Source of the DNA: Acidimicrobiia bacterium
GTDB lineage: Bacteria > Actinomycetota > Acidimicrobiia > Acidimicrobiales > Poriferisodalaceae
Direction: 5' to 3'
Length of the DNA: 64,000 bases
Assembly (NCBI GenBank): GCA_022820505.1
Contig: JAJEFK010000026.1
Span: 44,827 to 108,826 of the forward strand
Shown: positions 38,361 to 49,142 of the stretch, one piece after another
How positions within the stretch are numbered: the stretch's first letter is position 1
Layout of the letters: each line of letters opens with the position of its first letter
Notes under the pieces: model-generated
What the model saw: only the letters and a program-made list of their open reading frames with translations
The model's database searches: none
What the model was told of the DNA's origin: nothing
Translations under genes and position numbers: made by a program

Positions 38361-39287
38361 TCAATCCGCGCCGAGCAGTGCTGCCAGACGTCGAAGGGTG
38401 GCAAGCACCTCTTCCGCACGCGCTGCGCTTCCTCCCGCGAGCACATCAGCGGCTTCGGCGCTCAAGAGTGACCAAACGGTCTCTGGATCGCTGTCGTCGG
38501 TGTGCTTTCGCAAGAACGCTGTCCAGTCGCGAGCAGGAATGCCGGCCAAGGGCTGACGGATCGCGGCATCGATCCAGTCGTCCATGATCCCGATGCGAGC
38601 AATCCTGCCGAAGTTGTGACCGCTGTCAGAGACCGGTTCGTCGACCGTGCGGTCCCGGCCGCTATACGGCTCGACGCCGGTGGGAACGCGGATTGCCGTG
38701 TCGCTGTGAGCATCGCGGATGTTCTGCCACCAGTAGTTGCGGTACTCCGCCGCATATCGGGCTGACCAGATGCCGGGTGCAAGCACGCGCGGCTTCCCCG
38801 ACACCACATTCGACAAGCACCAAGGCACCACGACGAGCAAGTCCCACTGACTGCAAGCCATCGGCGTGACCGTGTATCGAAAACTCGGTACCGCCTCCTT
38901 CGCGAGCAAGTACCAGCCTTTCAGCTCGATTCCCATCGCCACATCGTCAACCCCCTGCGCGCTGCGACTGCGTAGGAGGACATCCGGAAACGTCTGCGCC
39001 TGCCTCACAAACTCGTGCAAGGGCCACTCGCCATCGGGATCCCAGACATCGCGCATCCTGTTCAGTGCTTCCACCACCTGCACTTCGATCGTCGCTCCGA
39101 GAACCGTGTTCAGCGCGAACAGATCCGTCGCATCGAGACCCTCCATAACGGTCGGCGACTGGAAGTGAATCGGCAACGCGGTGAGCGCATCCCGAACCCG
39201 GTTGGAGAGAGATGTGACCCGATGGTCGGGGTCCGGCTCGGGCGGGGTTGGCTCGTCCGCGCTCGCGGCGCGAGCTTCGTTGGGCAT
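38361..39287 (-). CDS. Putative PD-(D/E)XK restriction endonuclease
   Basis: TFPDVLLRSRSAQGVDDVAMGIELKGWYLLAKEAVPSFRYTV (PD...ExK); start abuts the methyltransferase stop. Confidence 0.65.
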   Translation of the reverse strand: MPNEARAASADEPTPPEPDPDHRVTSLSNRVRDALTALPIHFQSPTVMEGLDATDLFALNTVLGATIEVQVVEALNRMRDVWDPDGEWPLHEFVRQAQTFPDVLLRSRSAQGVDDVAMGIELKGWYLLAKEAVPSFRYTVTPMACSQWDLLVVVPWCLSNVVSGKPRVLAPGIWSARYAAEYRNYWWQNIRDAHSDTAIRVPTGVEPYSGRDRTVDEPVSDSGHNFGRIARIGIMDDWIDAAIRQPLAGIPARDWTAFLRKHTDDSDPETVWSLLSAEAADVLAGGSAARAEEVLATLRRLAALLGAD

Positions 39288-40393
39288 CAGACGTTCTTGC
39301 GCGGAGCAGCCGATGCGTCCAAGAGCCGCTGCTCGGCGACATCGGCAAAGTGGTCCACGCGCTCAGCTGCAAATGCATGCCGCCCACACGCAATTGCTGC
39401 TGCTGCGGCACTGCACAAACCGCCGAACGGCTCCCAGACGACATGGCCTGGACGGGTGGCCGCTGTGATGATGCGCTCCATGAACTCGACCGGCTTCTGG
39501 TTGAGGTGGACAGACGCATGGCGGCCCGGATTGTGGACACGCGGTGCGGAGCGGATGCCATTGCCCTTGTAGCGCTCGTCGCTGTGCAGCGCGGGTCGGC
39601 GCCACACGTTCGTCAGGCCGTGGGCATGAGTCCAAGCGTGGCGCAGCCGCGACCACTCTGACGCAGTGAGGGGCGTAGGACCATCCACGGAGTAGTAGGG
39701 GGCACCCTTTGGGTCACCATGGTGATTCGCGTAGGCGACCAACCGCTCCAGCATCTCGGGCGGTGGGAAGTACCAAAGCCAATCCTGGGTCAGATACTTG
39801 CGAGTTGCTGCATTGGCGACTCCACACGCCTCGTTTGCGCGGTACAGCGGCAAGCCAGCCCGCAGCCATTCATGGCGCAGCCACTGCTTGGCGGGCATGA
39901 CGCCCTCTGCGGTCTCGAATTCCAGGCGTCGCCGGTAGAAAACGCAGACTTCAGTGGTCACCGGGAACTGGCGGATCGTGTCGCCGTTGACGTTGCCAGC
40001 GATGTGACTGAGCCCCTTGTCCCAGACGATGCTCTGGACGTAATCCCAGCCAGCGTCCGCCAGCAGCGGATGCACACTCGCCCAGCCGATCTCCGTGTTC
40101 CAGAACCACAGCGTCGTAGCCGGGTGGGCGAACTTCGTCCAGTTCTCGATATGCGGGGCATACCAGTTCGGCAACTCCGACGGAGTGCGCGGATCGCCTG
40201 GAAACCCGCCGACACCGTACGCGCCGTCGGACATGATCAGCGAAGGCTGAGGCCATTCCACGTAGACGTCAAGAACGTCGCCGCGGTGCAGTGACCAATG
40301 CGGCTGCGATTCGTCAAACCTGACGGAAGCGCGCGTTCGTTCGGTCACCACACGACCAGAATAGGCAGGGGGTGTCACCGAATCACTGCTCAT
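39287..40393 (-). CDS. Site-specific DNA methyltransferase (N4/N6 amino-MTase-like)
   Basis: IMSDGAYGVGGFPGD (motif IV position), NQKPVEFMERII, VVWEPFGGLCSAAAAA (motif I position). Confidence 0.8.
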   Translation of the reverse strand: MSSDSVTPPAYSGRVVTERTRASVRFDESQPHWSLHRGDVLDVYVEWPQPSLIMSDGAYGVGGFPGDPRTPSELPNWYAPHIENWTKFAHPATTLWFWNTEIGWASVHPLLADAGWDYVQSIVWDKGLSHIAGNVNGDTIRQFPVTTEVCVFYRRRLEFETAEGVMPAKQWLRHEWLRAGLPLYRANEACGVANAATRKYLTQDWLWYFPPPEMLERLVAYANHHGDPKGAPYYSVDGPTPLTASEWSRLRHAWTHAHGLTNVWRRPALHSDERYKGNGIRSAPRVHNPGRHASVHLNQKPVEFMERIITAATRPGHVVWEPFGGLCSAAAAAIACGRHAFAAERVDHFADVAEQRLLDASAAPRKNV

Positions 40394-40454
40394 CGCCAAC
40401 TGTCGTCGATGATCGCACATCGGGCATCCGATAGCTGGACGAGCACTCCGAAAT

Positions 40455-40481
40455 TGGCGCTGATTGCTGATCGAGGTGGCT
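40455..40481 (+). repeat. 27-bp direct repeat, right copy
   Basis: TGGCGCTGATTGCTGATCGAGGTGGCT. Confidence 0.95.
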
Positions 40482-40550
40482 ATCGTTGCTGCGCTTGCAT
40501 CGGCAGAGATCCCGATCTCGACCTCGGCGCAAGCACACAGCAATACAGCT

Positions 40551-42398: not shown

Positions 42399-42590
42399 AT
42401 GTCTGAAGTTGATGAGCAGCCCGACCCAGAGGCGGTCATTGCGTCTGATGGCGACGAGTTGACCGAAGCCGAGCTGGAACAGGTCCAAGGCGCAACCGGC
42501 GTCAGCACGGGCGGCCAACAAGTCAACCCCGGGGCCGGGGCCGCCGCGTCGGGCCAGGCCAAGGCCGCGGCCGCCGCAGGACGGGTGTAA
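42399..42590 (+). CDS. Putative leader-containing precursor peptide (double-glycine-like leader ELTEAELEQVQGA)
   Basis: MSEVDEQPDPEAVIASDGDELTEAELEQVQGATGVSTGGQQVNPGAGAAASGQAKAAAAAGRV next to NHLM transporter genes. Confidence 0.6.
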   Translation: MSEVDEQPDPEAVIASDGDELTEAELEQVQGATGVSTGGQQVNPGAGAAASGQAKAAAAAGRV

Positions 42591-42695
42591 CGCCACTCAC
42601 CCGGCGTCGGCGTCGGCAGATCATGCCGGAGACCGACAGGGCAACATCGGCCGAGTGGCAGATCGACCTGATCTGAAGAGTTGCGGTACCCGAGG

Positions 42696-45689
42696 CTAGG
42701 CGAGCTGGCGCTCCACGAGCCGCCGGAACACGCCATCGGCACCGTACAGCTCGTCGAAGCTGCCGACCTGCACGACGCGCCCCGCCTGCATCACATAGAT
42801 GCGGTCGGCCTGCCGGATGGTCGACAGACGGTGGGCGATCACGATGCGGGTGGCGGCGAGGCGCTCAATGCCGGCCATCACCTGTGCTTGGCTGCGCGAG
42901 TCGAGCCAGCTCGTGGCCTCGTCGAGCCATACCACGCGTGGGTTTCGTGCCAACGCCGCAGCTATGCGGACTCGCTGGGCCTGCCCGCCCGAGAATGTCG
43001 AGCCTTCGGTGACGACGGTGTGCATCTGCATCGGCATCTCGGCAATCTCGTCGGCGACGTCGGCGCGACGCGCCGCATGCCACGCGTCATCGACGGTCAA
43101 GTCGTCGCCCATCCCGATGATGTTGTCGAGGAGGCTGCCCGGTTGCAGAGCGGCGTCCTGGGTGACCACGCCGAGTTGCCGACGCAGCACATGACGATCA
43201 AGGAACGCGATGTCGCGGCCGTCGTAATACACGCTGCCCGAGGTCGGGTCTTCGAGACCGAGCCCCAGCCGCATCAGCGTGCTCTTGCCGGCGCCGGAGT
43301 CGCCCACGATCGCGATGAACTCGCCCGGGCGGGCGCTGATCGACACGTCGGTGATGATCTCGGTGTCAGGGTCGTAGCGAAAGCTGACGTGGTCGAAGCT
43401 GACCTCGCCCCCGATCTCGAATCCGCCGCGGCCGATGCCGGACGGCTCCGGGCGTTCCCGCAGCACCGGGCGGACCTGCTCATACGCGGGCACTGCCGCT
43501 GCCACCGCCTCGAACGAACGGGCCAAGTTGGCCGCGGCTGCGTAAAAGGTCATGGCGACGGCGTAGACGACGAGGAAATCGCTGACCTGCAGCCGATCTC
43601 CCCCCCCGCGCCACACGGCGACCCCGCACAGGGCTGCGCCGATCAGCGCAGGCGTCGCCGCGCCCAGCGACATCAGGTGCTCGTTGAGGCGTGCAACCGC
43701 AATGGTCGCGAGCTGCTGGTCGCGATAGTGGCCCGCCCATCGTGCGAAGGCGGACGGCTCGGCGCCGGCACTGCGCAGCTTGCTGATCCCGCTGATCGAC
43801 TGCAGCAGCTCGCTGGTGGCGCGACGCTCAGCTGCGAACCTGCGCCGCTGCGGGCCGAACTGCCACAGCCCGACCAGCGCGCCGACGGCCACGCTCAGCG
43901 CACCCAGCGCGAGGCTGACCAGCGCGAGCGTCAGGTCATAGGCGAAGGGGATCGCAAGCGTGGGCGCCAGGAACGCCACCGCCAGCAGCGAGTTCGCCAC
44001 CACACCCGACACTTGATCGCGCATCCACTGGAAGCTCGCCATGCGCGAGGCGAGATCGCCGGTCGTGAACCTCCGAAGGAAACTCGGCGGAAGCGACAGC
44101 ACACGATCCCAGGCTGCGGCACTGACGCGTGCCGCAGCGCGCCCTTCGATACGCATCAGCGAGGTCCCGAGCAGAATCTGCAACACCACGCCCACCGCGG
44201 CGAAGCCGGCGAGAGCGATCATCACCTGAACCAGCATGTCGCCGGCCGCGCTCACGAGCACCCAGTCGGTGAGCACACCGACTGCCACCGCCGGCACCTG
44301 CATCAGCACAGCCGCGACAAGCCCGACCGCAACGAAGCGCACCAGATCTCCCGCGAGCCCTTGACGGGCGACGCGGGCAAGGTCGCGTGCGCTCGCCGGC
44401 TTCTCAGGCGGAAACGTCGGGTAGCACAGCCAAGCCGTCTCCGCGAGTTCGGCGGCGCGCTCGGCGCTGAGGCGACGTGAGGTTCCGTCGACAGGATCGA
44501 CCACGCGATAGCGGCCGGTCCAATGCGGCAGCAGCGCTACCGGCTGACCATCTGCTGCGCGGCGGCCCAGCATCGCGCCGCTGTCGCCGAGCCACCAGCG
44601 GTCCTCGGAGCTGAGCCGCACCTCGCGCGCTCGCACGCCCGATGCGCGCACGACGTCGGCCAAGCTGGGCTCAGCGTCGCCCGAGTCGCCATAACGGACC
44701 GGCGCCCGGAAGTCGATGCCTTGGCGCTTGCCGATCAGCGCCAGCGCCGACATCAGCATCGAGGCGCCGTGCACGTCCTGCGTGGGGTGGCGTTCATGGA
44801 TCCGGCTGAGGCCGACCGCAGCCGACTCGGCGTCACGGCGGCGCAGCGCCTCGCGTGCGGTCTGCTCGTTGACCGCATCGGCGCGCGCCAGCATCCGGTT
44901 GAGCTGCTCCGCGCTCAGCGCGAGCCGATGAAAGTCGTCGAGCGCTTCGAGGAGCCGGCCGTCGGCTGCGAGGCCCGCCGAGGTGGAGATGCGCAGCGTG
45001 CCGTGGGGGGGGGCGGTGAGCCAGGTGTCGGAGGTCAACGGCACGGCGGCGGTGGACTGCGAGAGCGTTTCGGTGCCCAAATAGGCGACATCGACGGCAT
45101 CGGACGCGGCCCACGCAACGGTGCCAGGCCGCGCCGACACGATCGTGGCGACGGCTGAGGCGGGCAGGCTCTGTGAGGCAGCGGGGTCGACGACGGCATC
45201 GGGGCGCGGGCGCGGCTCGATCGGTTCAGCAATAGCGCGCGAGACCGAGGCGATCCAGGCGTCGGCCTGAGCGGCGAGCTCGTCGGCCAGTGCGGGATCG
45301 GCCAGATCCGAGCGCTGCAGCCTCGCCAGTCGCGTGCCGGGCAGGCCCTTGCCGACGGCGGTCAATGACACACCGCTCGCCTCGAACCCGAACACCAGCT
45401 GACCCGCTTGGACGCGTGCCACATGGCGTGCGCTCGAGGCGGCCTGTCCGTCATCGACTTCGAACAGGAACACATCGACTGCGCCGCGAACCACGAGGCA
45501 GACCTGAGACGGATCGTCGAGCGTGATGGGCATGTTGGCCGCGCTCGACACGTCTTCGCTCTCGTCCAGCGCGACCCGCGCGATGAGCGACGTGCGGCTC
45601 ATCTGCGCCAGCGCGGCCTCCGCAGGCTGAGCATCGTGCGGGCGTCCGTCATCGCCCCACGTTGCCGATGCCGCCCGCAGCGTGCTCAT
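42696..45689 (-). CDS. NHLM-type bacteriocin ABC transporter (permease/ATPase, long N-terminal region)
   Basis: 997 aa; VGDSGAGKSTLMRLGLGLEDPTSGSVYYDG, TFSGGQAQRVRIAAAL, VVWLDEATSWLD; N-terminal regulatory-like region; overlaps next gene. Confidence 0.85.
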   Translation of the reverse strand: MSTLRAASATWGDDGRPHDAQPAEAALAQMSRTSLIARVALDESEDVSSAANMPITLDDPSQVCLVVRGAVDVFLFEVDDGQAASSARHVARVQAGQLVFGFEASGVSLTAVGKGLPGTRLARLQRSDLADPALADELAAQADAWIASVSRAIAEPIEPRPRPDAVVDPAASQSLPASAVATIVSARPGTVAWAASDAVDVAYLGTETLSQSTAAVPLTSDTWLTAPPHGTLRISTSAGLAADGRLLEALDDFHRLALSAEQLNRMLARADAVNEQTAREALRRRDAESAAVGLSRIHERHPTQDVHGASMLMSALALIGKRQGIDFRAPVRYGDSGDAEPSLADVVRASGVRAREVRLSSEDRWWLGDSGAMLGRRAADGQPVALLPHWTGRYRVVDPVDGTSRRLSAERAAELAETAWLCYPTFPPEKPASARDLARVARQGLAGDLVRFVAVGLVAAVLMQVPAVAVGVLTDWVLVSAAGDMLVQVMIALAGFAAVGVVLQILLGTSLMRIEGRAAARVSAAAWDRVLSLPPSFLRRFTTGDLASRMASFQWMRDQVSGVVANSLLAVAFLAPTLAIPFAYDLTLALVSLALGALSVAVGALVGLWQFGPQRRRFAAERRATSELLQSISGISKLRSAGAEPSAFARWAGHYRDQQLATIAVARLNEHLMSLGAATPALIGAALCGVAVWRGGGDRLQVSDFLVVYAVAMTFYAAAANLARSFEAVAAAVPAYEQVRPVLRERPEPSGIGRGGFEIGGEVSFDHVSFRYDPDTEIITDVSISARPGEFIAIVGDSGAGKSTLMRLGLGLEDPTSGSVYYDGRDIAFLDRHVLRRQLGVVTQDAALQPGSLLDNIIGMGDDLTVDDAWHAARRADVADEIAEMPMQMHTVVTEGSTFSGGQAQRVRIAAALARNPRVVWLDEATSWLDSRSQAQVMAGIERLAATRIVIAHRLSTIRQADRIYVMQAGRVVQVGSFDELYGADGVFRRLVERQLA

Positions 45690-47887
45690 TGCGACCGCAC
45701 CAGCTGGCTATAGAGGCCGTCGGCGTCGGCGAGCAGCGTGTCGTGGCTGCCCCGCTGCACCTCCCGGCCGCCGTCCATGACGATGATCTGGTCGCAGTCG
45801 CGGATCGTGCTGAGACGGTGCGCGACAATGAGGCACGAGCAGCCGCGACGGCGCAACGCGTCGTCGATGCGCCGTTCGGTCTCGGCGTCGAGCGTGCTGG
45901 TGGCCTCGTCGAGCAGCAGCACCGAGGGGCGAGCGACAAGAGCACGCGCTATCTCGAGCCGTTGGCGCTGGCCGCCGCTGAAGTTGGCGCCCCCTTCCCG
46001 GACATGGGCCTCATAGCCGCCGCGTCGGCGCATGATGTCGTCGTGGATCATGGCGTCGCGCGCTGCGGCCACCATGTCCGCCTCCGAAGCGGCGGCATTC
46101 CACATGGTGATGTTGTCGCGCACGCTGCCGTCGAACAGCGCTATCTGCTGATCGACCGTGGCCACCGATCCGACGAAGACCGGGCGCGGGATCTCACGCG
46201 TCGGCACACCGTCGAAGAGGACCTCACCCGACCACGGCTCGAACTCGCCGCTGACCAGGCGCAGCAGCGTCGATTTCCCCGAGCCGGTCGGCCCTACCAC
46301 CGCGATGCGCTGGCCGGGCTCGATGGCGAGGCTGAGCCCGTCGATGAGCGGTTCGGTCCGACCCCGGTAGCCGAAGCGAAGCTCGCTCACCTCCACCCGG
46401 CCCGCCAGCCGCAGGCAGCCATTCAGCGTCATCACGCGGCCGGGCTGCGACCCGTCGCCGGTATCGCCTGCCGCGTCGGCGGCAACCGCGGGGTCCGGCT
46501 CGGCTGCGGAGATGTCGCGCACCCGCTGCACATCGGCGCCGAGCAGCTCGAACGTGTCCACGTACAGCACGAAGCGCCCGATGGGAGCGAGGAAGCTGCC
46601 TGCCAGGACGTACACGGCGATCAGCTCGCCGATGCTGAGATCCCCTTCGATGACCTGCCAGCCGCCGAGCCCCAGCACGACCAGCGTGCCGCACGCGAGG
46701 AACAGCCCCGGCAGCGCCGCGTTCACATACGCCAGCTCGACCACCCGCTGACGAGCCGAGAGCTCGCGCGCTTGGTGGCCGCTCCAGCGGACGAAGAAGT
46801 CGTTCTCGGCTGCGGTGGCGCGCAGCATGTCGGCTTGGCGCAGCCCGGTGGTCTCGATGCCGAACAGCAGGGCCTGCTCGCGCCGCAGCAGCCGCTGGTG
46901 ATCCGTGCGGCGCAGGCTCACCAAGCGCGCGATGGCGACGTTGATCAGTGCTACAGCCAGCACGCTCGCGGCAATGAGCGGGTCGTAGACCACAAGCAGC
47001 GCCCACAACGCGACACTGGTCACCAGTTCCACAGCGAGTCCCACGAGATGTCGGCCGGCGCCATCGGCGATCTCGTCCACCAATCCGACTCGGGTGGTGA
47101 GATCGCCCGCGAAGCGGTGAGCGAAGTACTGCTTGGGCAGGCGCAGCAGATGCTGCAGCAGTCGCTGGGAACGCACCACGGCTACGCCGATGGCGATCCG
47201 GCGCAGCATGCGCTGCTGCAGCCAAGTCAGCAGGTAGACCGCAGCGCCCGCCAGCGCCATGGCGGCAACCACGAAGCCGCCCCAGTGGGGCGCCTCGCCG
47301 CCCAAGACGCTGTCGACGAAGACGCCGAGCAGCACGGGCAGCGCGAGGGCCGGGATTGCCAGCAGCAGCCCGGCCAGCGCCACGTATGCGAGTGCGCCGC
47401 GGGTGCCCGCAAGCCACGGCCACAGTGCACGCCACGCACTGGGGCGCTCCCCGACTGGCCGAAATGACGCCGTCGGCGACGCGGTGAGCACCACGCCCGC
47501 GTATGCGCGCTCCAGAGTCGAACGGCTCACGCGGCGACGGCCATTGGCCGGATCGTTCAGGTGGTACCGGTCGCCGACGATGCCTTCGAGCACCAAGAAG
47601 TGGTTGAACTCCCAGTACAGGATGGCCGGCAGGTCTGTCTCAGCCAGCGAGTCGACCTCCTTGCGCCAGCCGCGGACCTCCATGCCGTGCTTGTTGCCGG
47701 CGCGCACGATCCCTGCGGCACTGGCGCCGTCACGGCCGACGCCGCAGTCGTCCCGCAATTCCTCCAAGGGAACCCAGCGGCCGAAATGGGCCATGACGGC
47801 TGCCAGCGACGCTGCTCCGCATTCGGCCGCTTCAAGCTGAGGAATCAGCGGCGTGCGAATGCTGCGTCGTCGCAGCTGCGTCGGCAC
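45686..47887 (-). CDS. NHLM-type peptidase C39/permease/ATPase bacteriocin exporter
   Basis: IPQLEAAECGAASLAAVMAHFGR, FNHFLVLEG, LNDPANGRR (C39 Cys/His/Asp); VGPTGSGKSTLLRL; FSGGQRQRLEIARAL. Confidence 0.92.
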   Translation of the reverse strand: MPTQLRRRSIRTPLIPQLEAAECGAASLAAVMAHFGRWVPLEELRDDCGVGRDGASAAGIVRAGNKHGMEVRGWRKEVDSLAETDLPAILYWEFNHFLVLEGIVGDRYHLNDPANGRRRVSRSTLERAYAGVVLTASPTASFRPVGERPSAWRALWPWLAGTRGALAYVALAGLLLAIPALALPVLLGVFVDSVLGGEAPHWGGFVVAAMALAGAAVYLLTWLQQRMLRRIAIGVAVVRSQRLLQHLLRLPKQYFAHRFAGDLTTRVGLVDEIADGAGRHLVGLAVELVTSVALWALLVVYDPLIAASVLAVALINVAIARLVSLRRTDHQRLLRREQALLFGIETTGLRQADMLRATAAENDFFVRWSGHQARELSARQRVVELAYVNAALPGLFLACGTLVVLGLGGWQVIEGDLSIGELIAVYVLAGSFLAPIGRFVLYVDTFELLGADVQRVRDISAAEPDPAVAADAAGDTGDGSQPGRVMTLNGCLRLAGRVEVSELRFGYRGRTEPLIDGLSLAIEPGQRIAVVGPTGSGKSTLLRLVSGEFEPWSGEVLFDGVPTREIPRPVFVGSVATVDQQIALFDGSVRDNITMWNAAASEADMVAAARDAMIHDDIMRRRGGYEAHVREGGANFSGGQRQRLEIARALVARPSVLLLDEATSTLDAETERRIDDALRRRGCSCLIVAHRLSTIRDCDQIIVMDGGREVQRGSHDTLLADADGLYSQLVRSQ

Positions 47888-47893
47888 GGGCGC

Positions 47894-48475
47894 CTACCAG
47901 AGGCCGACGGTGGCGATGAAGCGAATCGGCGAGCGGTGCTCGGTCACGATGCGCACACGGCAGGCACTGCCCGACAGCGCCGCGCCGGAGGCGTCATCGG
48001 TCAGTTCCAGCCAGACACGGTGTGTGGCGGCAGGGTCCCGCAGCGCGGTGTCGAGCAGAAATTCGCTTCTTTGCGAGTCGCCGAGCATGACTTCCCGGAC
48101 GACTGCGCCCAAGGCGCCGTCGGTGCCAACCGGTGTTACACGCGCACCCATGCCGACCGTGACATCACTCGCTTGATGAGGGTTGAGGAGCGCGAGAACT
48201 GCCGGTTGCGAGTTCGCAGGCACAGCAACGTCTGCGCTTGACGCTTCACCGACGTTGTCACGCCCTACGAGCAGGCAGTCGGCTGAATGGCCCCGCTCAA
48301 TCGTCCCGAAGACCGTCCAAGCCAGCACGCCCAGCAGCGCCGCGGCGAGCAGCGCCAGGAACAGCCACTCGTGCGGTGCTGTGATGCGCAGCAGCCCGTC
48401 GACGGGTTCGGCCCGCCCACGGCGAGCGAGGGCTTCCTCGCGAAACAGATGTCTGCGTCGTGCCATCGGATTCAC
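47894..48475 (-). CDS. Compact HlyD-like / NHLM secretion adaptor
   Basis: RHLFREEALARRGRAEPVDGLLRITAPHEWLFLALLAAALLGVLAWTVFGTI; one TM near the N-terminus. Confidence 0.7.
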   Translation of the reverse strand: MNPMARRRHLFREEALARRGRAEPVDGLLRITAPHEWLFLALLAAALLGVLAWTVFGTIERGHSADCLLVGRDNVGEASSADVAVPANSQPAVLALLNPHQASDVTVGMGARVTPVGTDGALGAVVREVMLGDSQRSEFLLDTALRDPAATHRVWLELTDDASGAALSGSACRVRIVTEHRSPIRFIATVGLW

Positions 48476-48580
48476 ACACTAGAACGCACGCGTGCCGACG
48501 GACCCTTGCTGTGGCGCGGACACTTCCCGCGCTGGCCGATCGTGTGTATCCGAGGGGAATACGCCAGAGGAAACGTTGCC

Positions 48581-48748
48581 CTACTTGTTGGATCCCGAAT
48601 AGTTGTTCTGGGTCGTGTGAGTGCTGTAGGGGGATGACGAGCTGCTCGACCCAGACCCTTTGCCGCCGCTCACGTGCTGCAGCTCCTCAGAGGTGAGCTC
48701 GCGCTCGTCGATGTCTCCTTCAACGGGGGGGACCTTCGCATCAGACAT
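48581..48748 (-). CDS. Putative leader-containing precursor peptide 1
   Basis: MSDAKVPPVEGDIDERELTSEELQHVSGG|KGSGSSSSSSPYSTHTTQNNYSGSNK; GGAGG RBS; below the 60-aa ORF cutoff. Confidence 0.75.
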   Translation of the reverse strand: MSDAKVPPVEGDIDERELTSEELQHVSGGKGSGSSSSSSPYSTHTTQNNYSGSNK

Positions 48749-48880
48749 CCAGCAACCTCCAGAGGCCGACTCGGAACGGCCAGTATGTCACAGCAGCAGC
48801 CACGACGCGAAACTCGCCCAAGCAGCGCGGCATGTCTGCAGAAACCAAGGCCGACGCCGACACGCCCGGGGGTACGACTT

Positions 48881-49038
48881 CTAGATGTGATAGTAGGACG
48901 AGTGTGCGTTGTTATACGCAGTCGTCTTGTTGCCACCGCCGCTCACATCTTGGAGCTCTTCGGAAGTCAGCTCGCGCTCGTCGACATCCGCTTCAACGGG
49001 GGGGGGGGGGAGGCCTTCTCGACCTTCGCATCAGACAT
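48881..49038 (-). pseudogene. Putative precursor peptide 2, out of frame as assembled because of a G13 tract
   Basis: MSDAKVEKASPPP[frameshift]VEADVDERELTSEELQDVSGG|GNKTTAYNNAHSSYYHI; same RBS and upstream region as peptide 1. Confidence 0.65.
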
Positions 49039-49142
49039 TCAGCAACCTCCAGAGGCTAACTCGGGACGCCCAGTATGTCACAGCCATCGCAGCAGCCAAA
49101 ACACTGGATACGTCCGGCTGCTCATTCGAACAGAGCGGCGCT

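Follow-up and report, generated by a model that had tools for sequence, protein, structure and literature searches.

The 64,000-nt stretch of DNA analyzed here (the window; GenBank contig JAJEFK010000026.1, positions 44,827 to 108,826), from an Acidimicrobiia bacterium, carries a cassette of three short peptide precursor genes (precursors 1 to 3), a HlyD-type adaptor gene and two ABC transporter genes, ABC1 and ABC2. On balance, we favor the reading that this is an NHLP-type cassette for short, class-II-like peptides without a tailoring enzyme, in which precursor 1 serves as a contingency gene. The argument draws on a homopolymeric tract near the start of precursor 1, on the tailoring enzyme classes sought in the genome, and on the family membership of the exporter.

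A poly-C tract that probably switches precursor 1

Read from its ATG, precursor 1 encodes MSDAKVEKAS and then meets 13 consecutive C; its leader and core are in another frame (Table 1). The leader frame itself is preceded by a stop and has no ATG, GTG or TTG start. An earlier sequence-only reading of the window had listed three candidate precursors as equivalent. All three leader open reading frames (ORFs) were recovered by our motif search, but precursor 1 is not open from its start, the 13-C run having been missed, and precursor 3 differs in turn by a leader that ends in Gly-Ala. Tract length varies at the same place among relatives, with 13 C in the window, 12 C in L009 and 10 C in L012, while the copy is absent from L010. 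With 12 C, the leader frame of L009 is open from a second ATG, which lies 7 nt downstream and away from the good ribosome site. Precursor 1 thus has both a long 5′ coding tract that sets its frame (C13) and a tract length that differs among close relatives. After the tract, leader and core are near-identical in three species, with one amino-acid difference, no stop and no second indel.

Precursors 1 and 2 are sister copies. With 7 C, precursor 2 is in frame; in L009 it has a precursor-1-like N-terminus with a C-run of its own, likewise in frame. The repeats of the duplication, 69 and 64 nt long, are spaced 273 and 290 nt, and recombination between the two units would be expected to cause the loss of the precursor 1 copy from L010. 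A core motif similar to that of precursor 1 (AYNxA, ending in I) is found in a separate locus of the relative G007.

Genes usually switched by slipped-strand tracts encode surface proteins, restriction enzymes or secreted peptides. The 3.29-Mb genome holds six C/G runs of at least 12 nt, all of them in or at the 5′ end of genes: precursor 1 (13), two secreted proteins (12 each) and a type IIG restriction-modification gene (18, 15 and 13). Extrapolation from the fall-off of run lengths in the window gives an expectation of about 0.3 such runs per genome; independent base composition would allow about 10, but the lengths observed in the window drop far faster. The main argument for the tracts is accordingly their position in genes together with their length variation, and not the run count alone. 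Because the precursor 1 tract varies in length and all six long runs lie in or at the 5′ end of contingency-type genes, we infer that precursor 1 is probably subject to slipped-strand phase variation, which would switch the gene on and off.

Precursor 1 could instead be a decaying pseudogene, a tandem duplicate broken by the homopolymer, with precursors 2 and 3 as the real substrates. Such decay would fit the three out-of-frame alleles (3/3 with respect to the canonical start), the lack of the copy in L010 and a tandem duplication prone to recombination. It fits poorly with a leader and core that have changed by one amino acid in three species, with a tract that persists while changing length, with the location of all other long tracts of the genome in contingency-type genes, and with the similar core at the separate G007 locus, and we consider it rather unlikely. 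Alternatively, the 13-C run might stem from faulty sequencing or assembly, precursor 1 being an ordinary constitutive gene. Long C/G homopolymers are error-prone and the relatives are metagenome-assembled; yet the tract has a different length in each of three separate assemblies and in none of them is the canonical start in frame, the sister copy in precursor 2 is in frame with its 7 C, and the long tracts are confined to a few genes instead of being scattered. We regard an error of this kind as quite improbable.

The other tracts can be described individually. The type IIG restriction-modification gene (Eco57I-like; G000:C21:61664-62213, L103/L114) has three runs within 550 bp and broken reading frames, and is probably phase-variable. 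In a signal-peptide protein (G000:C43:73499-73510; L116, L119), a 12-G run directly follows the signal peptide and the rest of the ORF, about 500 aa, is out of frame; the G009 homologue (L120) has 9 G at the same position and is also out of frame. In a Calx-beta surface protein (G000:C16:26015-26026; L102, L128), a run of 12 stands just before the signal sequence and the upstream start is out of frame. Relatives of this protein (L121, L122, L123) have a tract at the same position; the start is in frame in G002 but not in G000 or G003.

Absence of three tailoring enzyme classes

In the genome to which the window belongs, which is 95.5% complete, searches for LANC_like/LanM, YcaO and SPASM proteins returned no matches in any class, while the same searches were positive in control genomes. 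The absence of a modification gene, stated for the locus by the sequence-only reading, extends to the whole genome for these three classes. Flanking genes scanned around the related cassettes in L011, G007 and G010 likewise included no LanC-like, YcaO or SPASM enzyme and were ordinary metabolic, transport or hydrolase genes. About 6 kb separate the G007 cassette from an O-methyltransferase gene; none was seen beside the L011 and G010 cassettes. We weighed, and rejected, a tailoring role for a radical SAM gene adjoining the L011 cassette, as its CofH/MqnC C-terminal domain suggests F420 biosynthesis.

Given the absence of LanC-like/LanM, YcaO and SPASM proteins from the genome and of Cys from the mature peptides, "unmodified" is the best reading of the products. 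The earlier suggestion of an unmodified secreted peptide system gains support from this and from the placement of the exporter in the NHLP group. The sister exporters have features of ribosomally synthesized and post-translationally modified peptide (RiPP) systems: YcaO proteins are encoded at L020:3479-5767 and L013:16100-18172 (metagenome-assembled genomes of another member of the Acidimicrobiia and of a member of the Nitrospirales), and an ORF in L014 matches the NHLP leader model TIGR03793 at 78.9 bits. The branch of the window either lost the tailoring part or never had it.

These sister systems also bear on the view that the peptides are RiPPs whose modifying enzyme is encoded at a distant site in the genome. 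Besides the YcaO genes and the NHLP leader precursor just described, this view has in its favor the cyanobacterial lanM genes that lie distant from exporter clusters (PMC3140520) and the core of precursor 2, half of which is Ser/Thr. It is at odds with the lack of any LANC_like, YcaO or SPASM match in a genome of this completeness and with cores that have no Cys, and we judge it quite unlikely.

An NHLP-type exporter with a stripped adaptor

ABC1 scores 857.2 bits against the NHLP-exporter model TIGR03796, above the cut-off of 853.3, and carries a Pfam Peptidase_C39 domain (4.8e-31); the TIGR03796 cut-off is also exceeded by the clade members in G007, G010 and G004. For ABC2 the best model is TIGR03797 (677.4 bits over residues 311-996, under the cut-off of 709.4), preceded by an N-terminal extension of about 310 aa. 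The sequence-only reading had described a C39-peptidase transporter and a second ABC transporter on the minus strand, in a row of genes with overlapping or tight spacing, and both the domain assignments and the overlap (4 nt) agree with this. In a transporter tree the cassette groups with NHLP-exporter homologues, within an Acidimicrobiia clade supported at 99/98 whose sister group consists of L013, L014 and L020; the nearest transporters outside the clade have NHLP leaders or YcaO alongside.

The adaptor matches the NHLP HlyD model TIGR03794 at 24.8 bits over 52 residues (9.3e-6; cut-off 156.2), while longer relatives reach 81-90 bits. It retains a single membrane helix, N-terminal and with an APHEW motif, and a C-terminal, beta-barrel-like beta domain. 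By alignment, it is shorter by about 100 residues than its 300-aa relatives, in the region where their lipoyl domain and helical hairpin sit, and it has neither a lipoyl domain nor a coiled-coil hairpin; the L014 relative has Biotin_lipoyl and HlyD_3 domains. Searched by profile against the PDB, the adaptor sequence gave nothing real, and its structure model is weak (predicted local distance difference test score, pLDDT, of 63), with the membrane-fusion proteins BesA, EmrA, MacA and Spr0693 as best folds (E ~1e-3). The "HlyD-like adaptor" of the sequence-only reading is a stripped form and no ordinary HlyD. Such a minimal adaptor would suit a cell without an outer membrane.

Judged by sequence, then, the transporter trio is real and NHLP-type, presumably operating in the NHLP manner, but a diverged relative rather than a typical member. 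The earlier assignment to the NHLM export architecture stands for ABC1 and for the phylogeny, which nests the transporters inside the NHLP-exporter group, and has to be qualified for ABC2 and the adaptor, which fall under their cut-offs.

Precursors 2 and 3 and the predicted cores

A strict regular expression for the leader found exactly three ORFs in the 64-kb window, precursors 1 to 3 and no others, and none in 20 Markov-random windows. Precursor 2 is intact in the window, L009, L010 and L012 and as an orphan in G007, with nonsynonymous divergence (dN) below synonymous divergence (dS) in all pairs. The leaders, 29-36 aa long, had been given a common ending, ELTSEELQxVSGG; precursor 3 departs from it and ends in ELTEAELEQVQGA, a Gly-Ala type site. 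The short leaders give weak, sub-threshold matches to bacteriocin-leader models. Compared with NHLM-associated precursors, as the sequence-only reading had proposed, precursors 2 and 3 match neither TIGR03793 nor TIGR03798, the models of long NHLP/Nif11 leaders.

The cores, of 17-31 residues, vary in sequence, carry a weak positive charge, and are hydrophilic or neutral in character and rich in Gly, Ala, Ser, Thr and Asn. None contains Cys, as had been noted before. Precursor 3 is the conserved precursor by position, since a convergent precursor facing ABC2 recurs at that spot in L009, L010, L012, L011, G010 and G004. Having precursors upstream of the adaptor characterizes the branch of the window. 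In G004 there are three precursors facing ABC2 (L039:6645-7700); these Gly-Gly precursors are larger, and their cores, about 65 aa long, are acidic, in contrast to the small, weakly cationic cores of the window.

Cassette layout and history

In order of transcription, the minus strand carries precursor 1, precursor 2, the short adaptor, ABC1 and ABC2, with precursor 3 on the plus strand facing ABC2 (Table 1).

Table 1. Features of the precursor and exporter cassette, in window positions.
Feature	Positions	Strand	Description
Precursor 1	48881..49038	-	Leader ..VEADVDERELTSEELQDVSGG and core GNKTTAYNNAHSSYYHI, out of frame with the ATG at 49036-49038; predicted OFF
C13 homopolymer (G13 on the plus strand)	48998..49010	-	Candidate contingency tract for slipped-strand switching, near the 5′ end of precursor 1
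Precursor 2	48581..48748	-	Leader MSDAKVPPVEGDIDERELTSEELQHVSGG, core KGSGSSSSSSPYSTHTTQNNYSGSNK; intact
HlyD-type adaptor, stripped, 193 aa	47894..48475	-	TIGR03794 over 52 aa; alignment; structure model
ABC1, C39 peptidase-permease-ATPase	45686..47887	-	TIGR03796 and Peptidase_C39; leader removal and export predicted
ABC2, permease-ATPase without peptidase	42696..45689	-	TIGR03797 best model
Precursor 3	42399..42590	+	Leader MSEVDEQPDPEAVIASDGDELTEAELEQVQGA, core TGVSTGGQQVNPGAGAAASGQAKAAAAAGRV; convergent with ABC2
Tandem duplication with the 5′ halves of precursors 1 and 2	48663..49084	-	Direct repeats of 69 nt (83%) and 64 nt (92%)

The cassette lies between purM and the malic enzyme gene in the window and in G001, G002 and G003. 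In six sister genomes (G004, G005, G006, G008, G009 and G010) these two genes abut, at 0 to about 40 bp or overlapping. G007 has, between the same genes (L079, 26130-26720 of G007:C83), an intact orphan precursor 2 and what appear to be the first codons of the adaptor; it looks as though the transporter genes were lost there. A second G007 transporter, 69% identical and with its own precursor, is on a different contig. The L011 cassette has different neighbors and includes precursor 3, with precursors 1 and 2 absent. The best explanation is a compact, mobile cassette that was inserted between purM and the malic enzyme gene. Adjoining the malic enzyme gene (window 38361-40543) are a DNA N6/N4 methyltransferase gene and a gene with weak resemblance to restriction enzymes; together they likely form a type II restriction-modification pair.

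Proposed mechanism

In the mechanism we propose, the C39 domain of ABC1 would cut behind Gly-Gly or Gly-Ala in precursors 2 and 3, and also in precursor 1 whenever it is in frame. The two transporters would then export the linear cores of 17-31 residues with the help of the minimal adaptor. Slippage in the poly-C tract would move the precursor 1 start in and out of frame, such that a third peptide is made by some cells of a clonal population. The cores are unlike pore-forming bacteriocins in their hydrophilic or neutral composition; our best guess is that they act in short-range signaling or narrow, bacteriocin-like antagonism, either being likelier than pore formation.

Several points weigh against the interpretation of the cassette as a tailoring-free exporter with a switched precursor. 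None of the three precursor 1 alleles is in frame with a canonical start, so the ON state has not been observed (window and L012 are OFF), and the genomes are metagenome assemblies in which homopolymer lengths could be wrong. Two of the three transport parts fall under their family cut-offs. A glycosyltransferase, an ATP-grasp enzyme or another class outside the LanC-like, YcaO and SPASM searches might modify the peptides. Finally, no immunity gene, sensor or receptor was identified next to the cassette.

A broader proposal, which we advance only tentatively, is one of phase-variable peptide secretion in an uncultured and possibly host-associated actinobacterium, whose genus would have a peptide system made up of an exporter alone; the poly-C tract in a precursor leader would create a subpopulation of bet-hedged peptide producers, as part of a genome-wide poly-C/G contingency set that comprises surface proteins, a restriction enzyme and a peptide.

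Comparison with known systems

NHLP-type exporters are best known for heavily modified natural products. If our reading is true, such an exporter operates here without any tailoring enzyme and with a minimal adaptor, and slipped-strand switching of a peptide product, known from Neisseria, extends to environmental actinobacteria. Genome mining that targets precursors would overlook precursor 1, as the gene looks broken.

The NHLP/Nif11 export system consists of an adaptor, a peptidase-ABC transporter and a second ABC transporter (TIGR03794/03796/03797), with leaders of about 70-83 aa (Haft, Basu and Mitchell, 2010; PMC2887384). The cassette of the window shares the three-gene exporter, the Gly-Gly precursors alongside and the variable cores. 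It differs in its leaders of 29-36 aa, which are not of the NHLP/Nif11 kind, in having no tailoring enzyme of the tested classes and in its 193-aa adaptor. In cyanobacteria, bacteriocin clusters of groups IV and V encode HlyD, a short-type C39 ABC transporter and an extra ABC transporter without peptidase, and each cluster has several double-glycine precursors, many of which belong to no named family (Wang, Fewer and Sivonen, 2011; PMC3140520). Here too the exporter parts are the same and the short double-glycine precursors multiple, whereas the window comes from another phylum, has no LanM in its genome, a minimal adaptor and a poly-C tract in a precursor. The suggestion of the sequence-only reading that the system is possibly new must therefore be narrowed, given that short double-glycine precursors of unnamed families beside such an exporter are already on record.

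The Neisseria nap island comprises horizontally acquired Gly-Gly peptides and a C39 peptidase, and a poly-G run (6-12) at the 5′ end of napR decides whether its Gly-Gly leader is produced (PMC11798529). A Gly-Gly peptide set, a C39 peptidase and a 5′ homopolymer in a Gly-Gly peptide gene are common to both. An NHLP exporter pair is not described for the island, however, and the nap peptides are cationic helices, as opposed to the hydrophilic, Ser/Asn/Gly-rich cores of the window. With class II (unmodified) bacteriocins and ComC-type peptides, the cassette shares a short Gly-Gly leader, a C39 ABC transporter and the lack of a tailoring enzyme; it departs from them in its exporter subfamily, its hydrophilic cores, and in that no immunity gene or sensor was identified. 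For poly-C/G switching, known from pathogens such as Neisseria, we found no precedent in the literature in this kind of cassette, and nothing relevant on phase variation in sponge symbionts. Hence, what looks new is the combination of an absent tailoring enzyme, a stripped adaptor and a poly-C-switched precursor.

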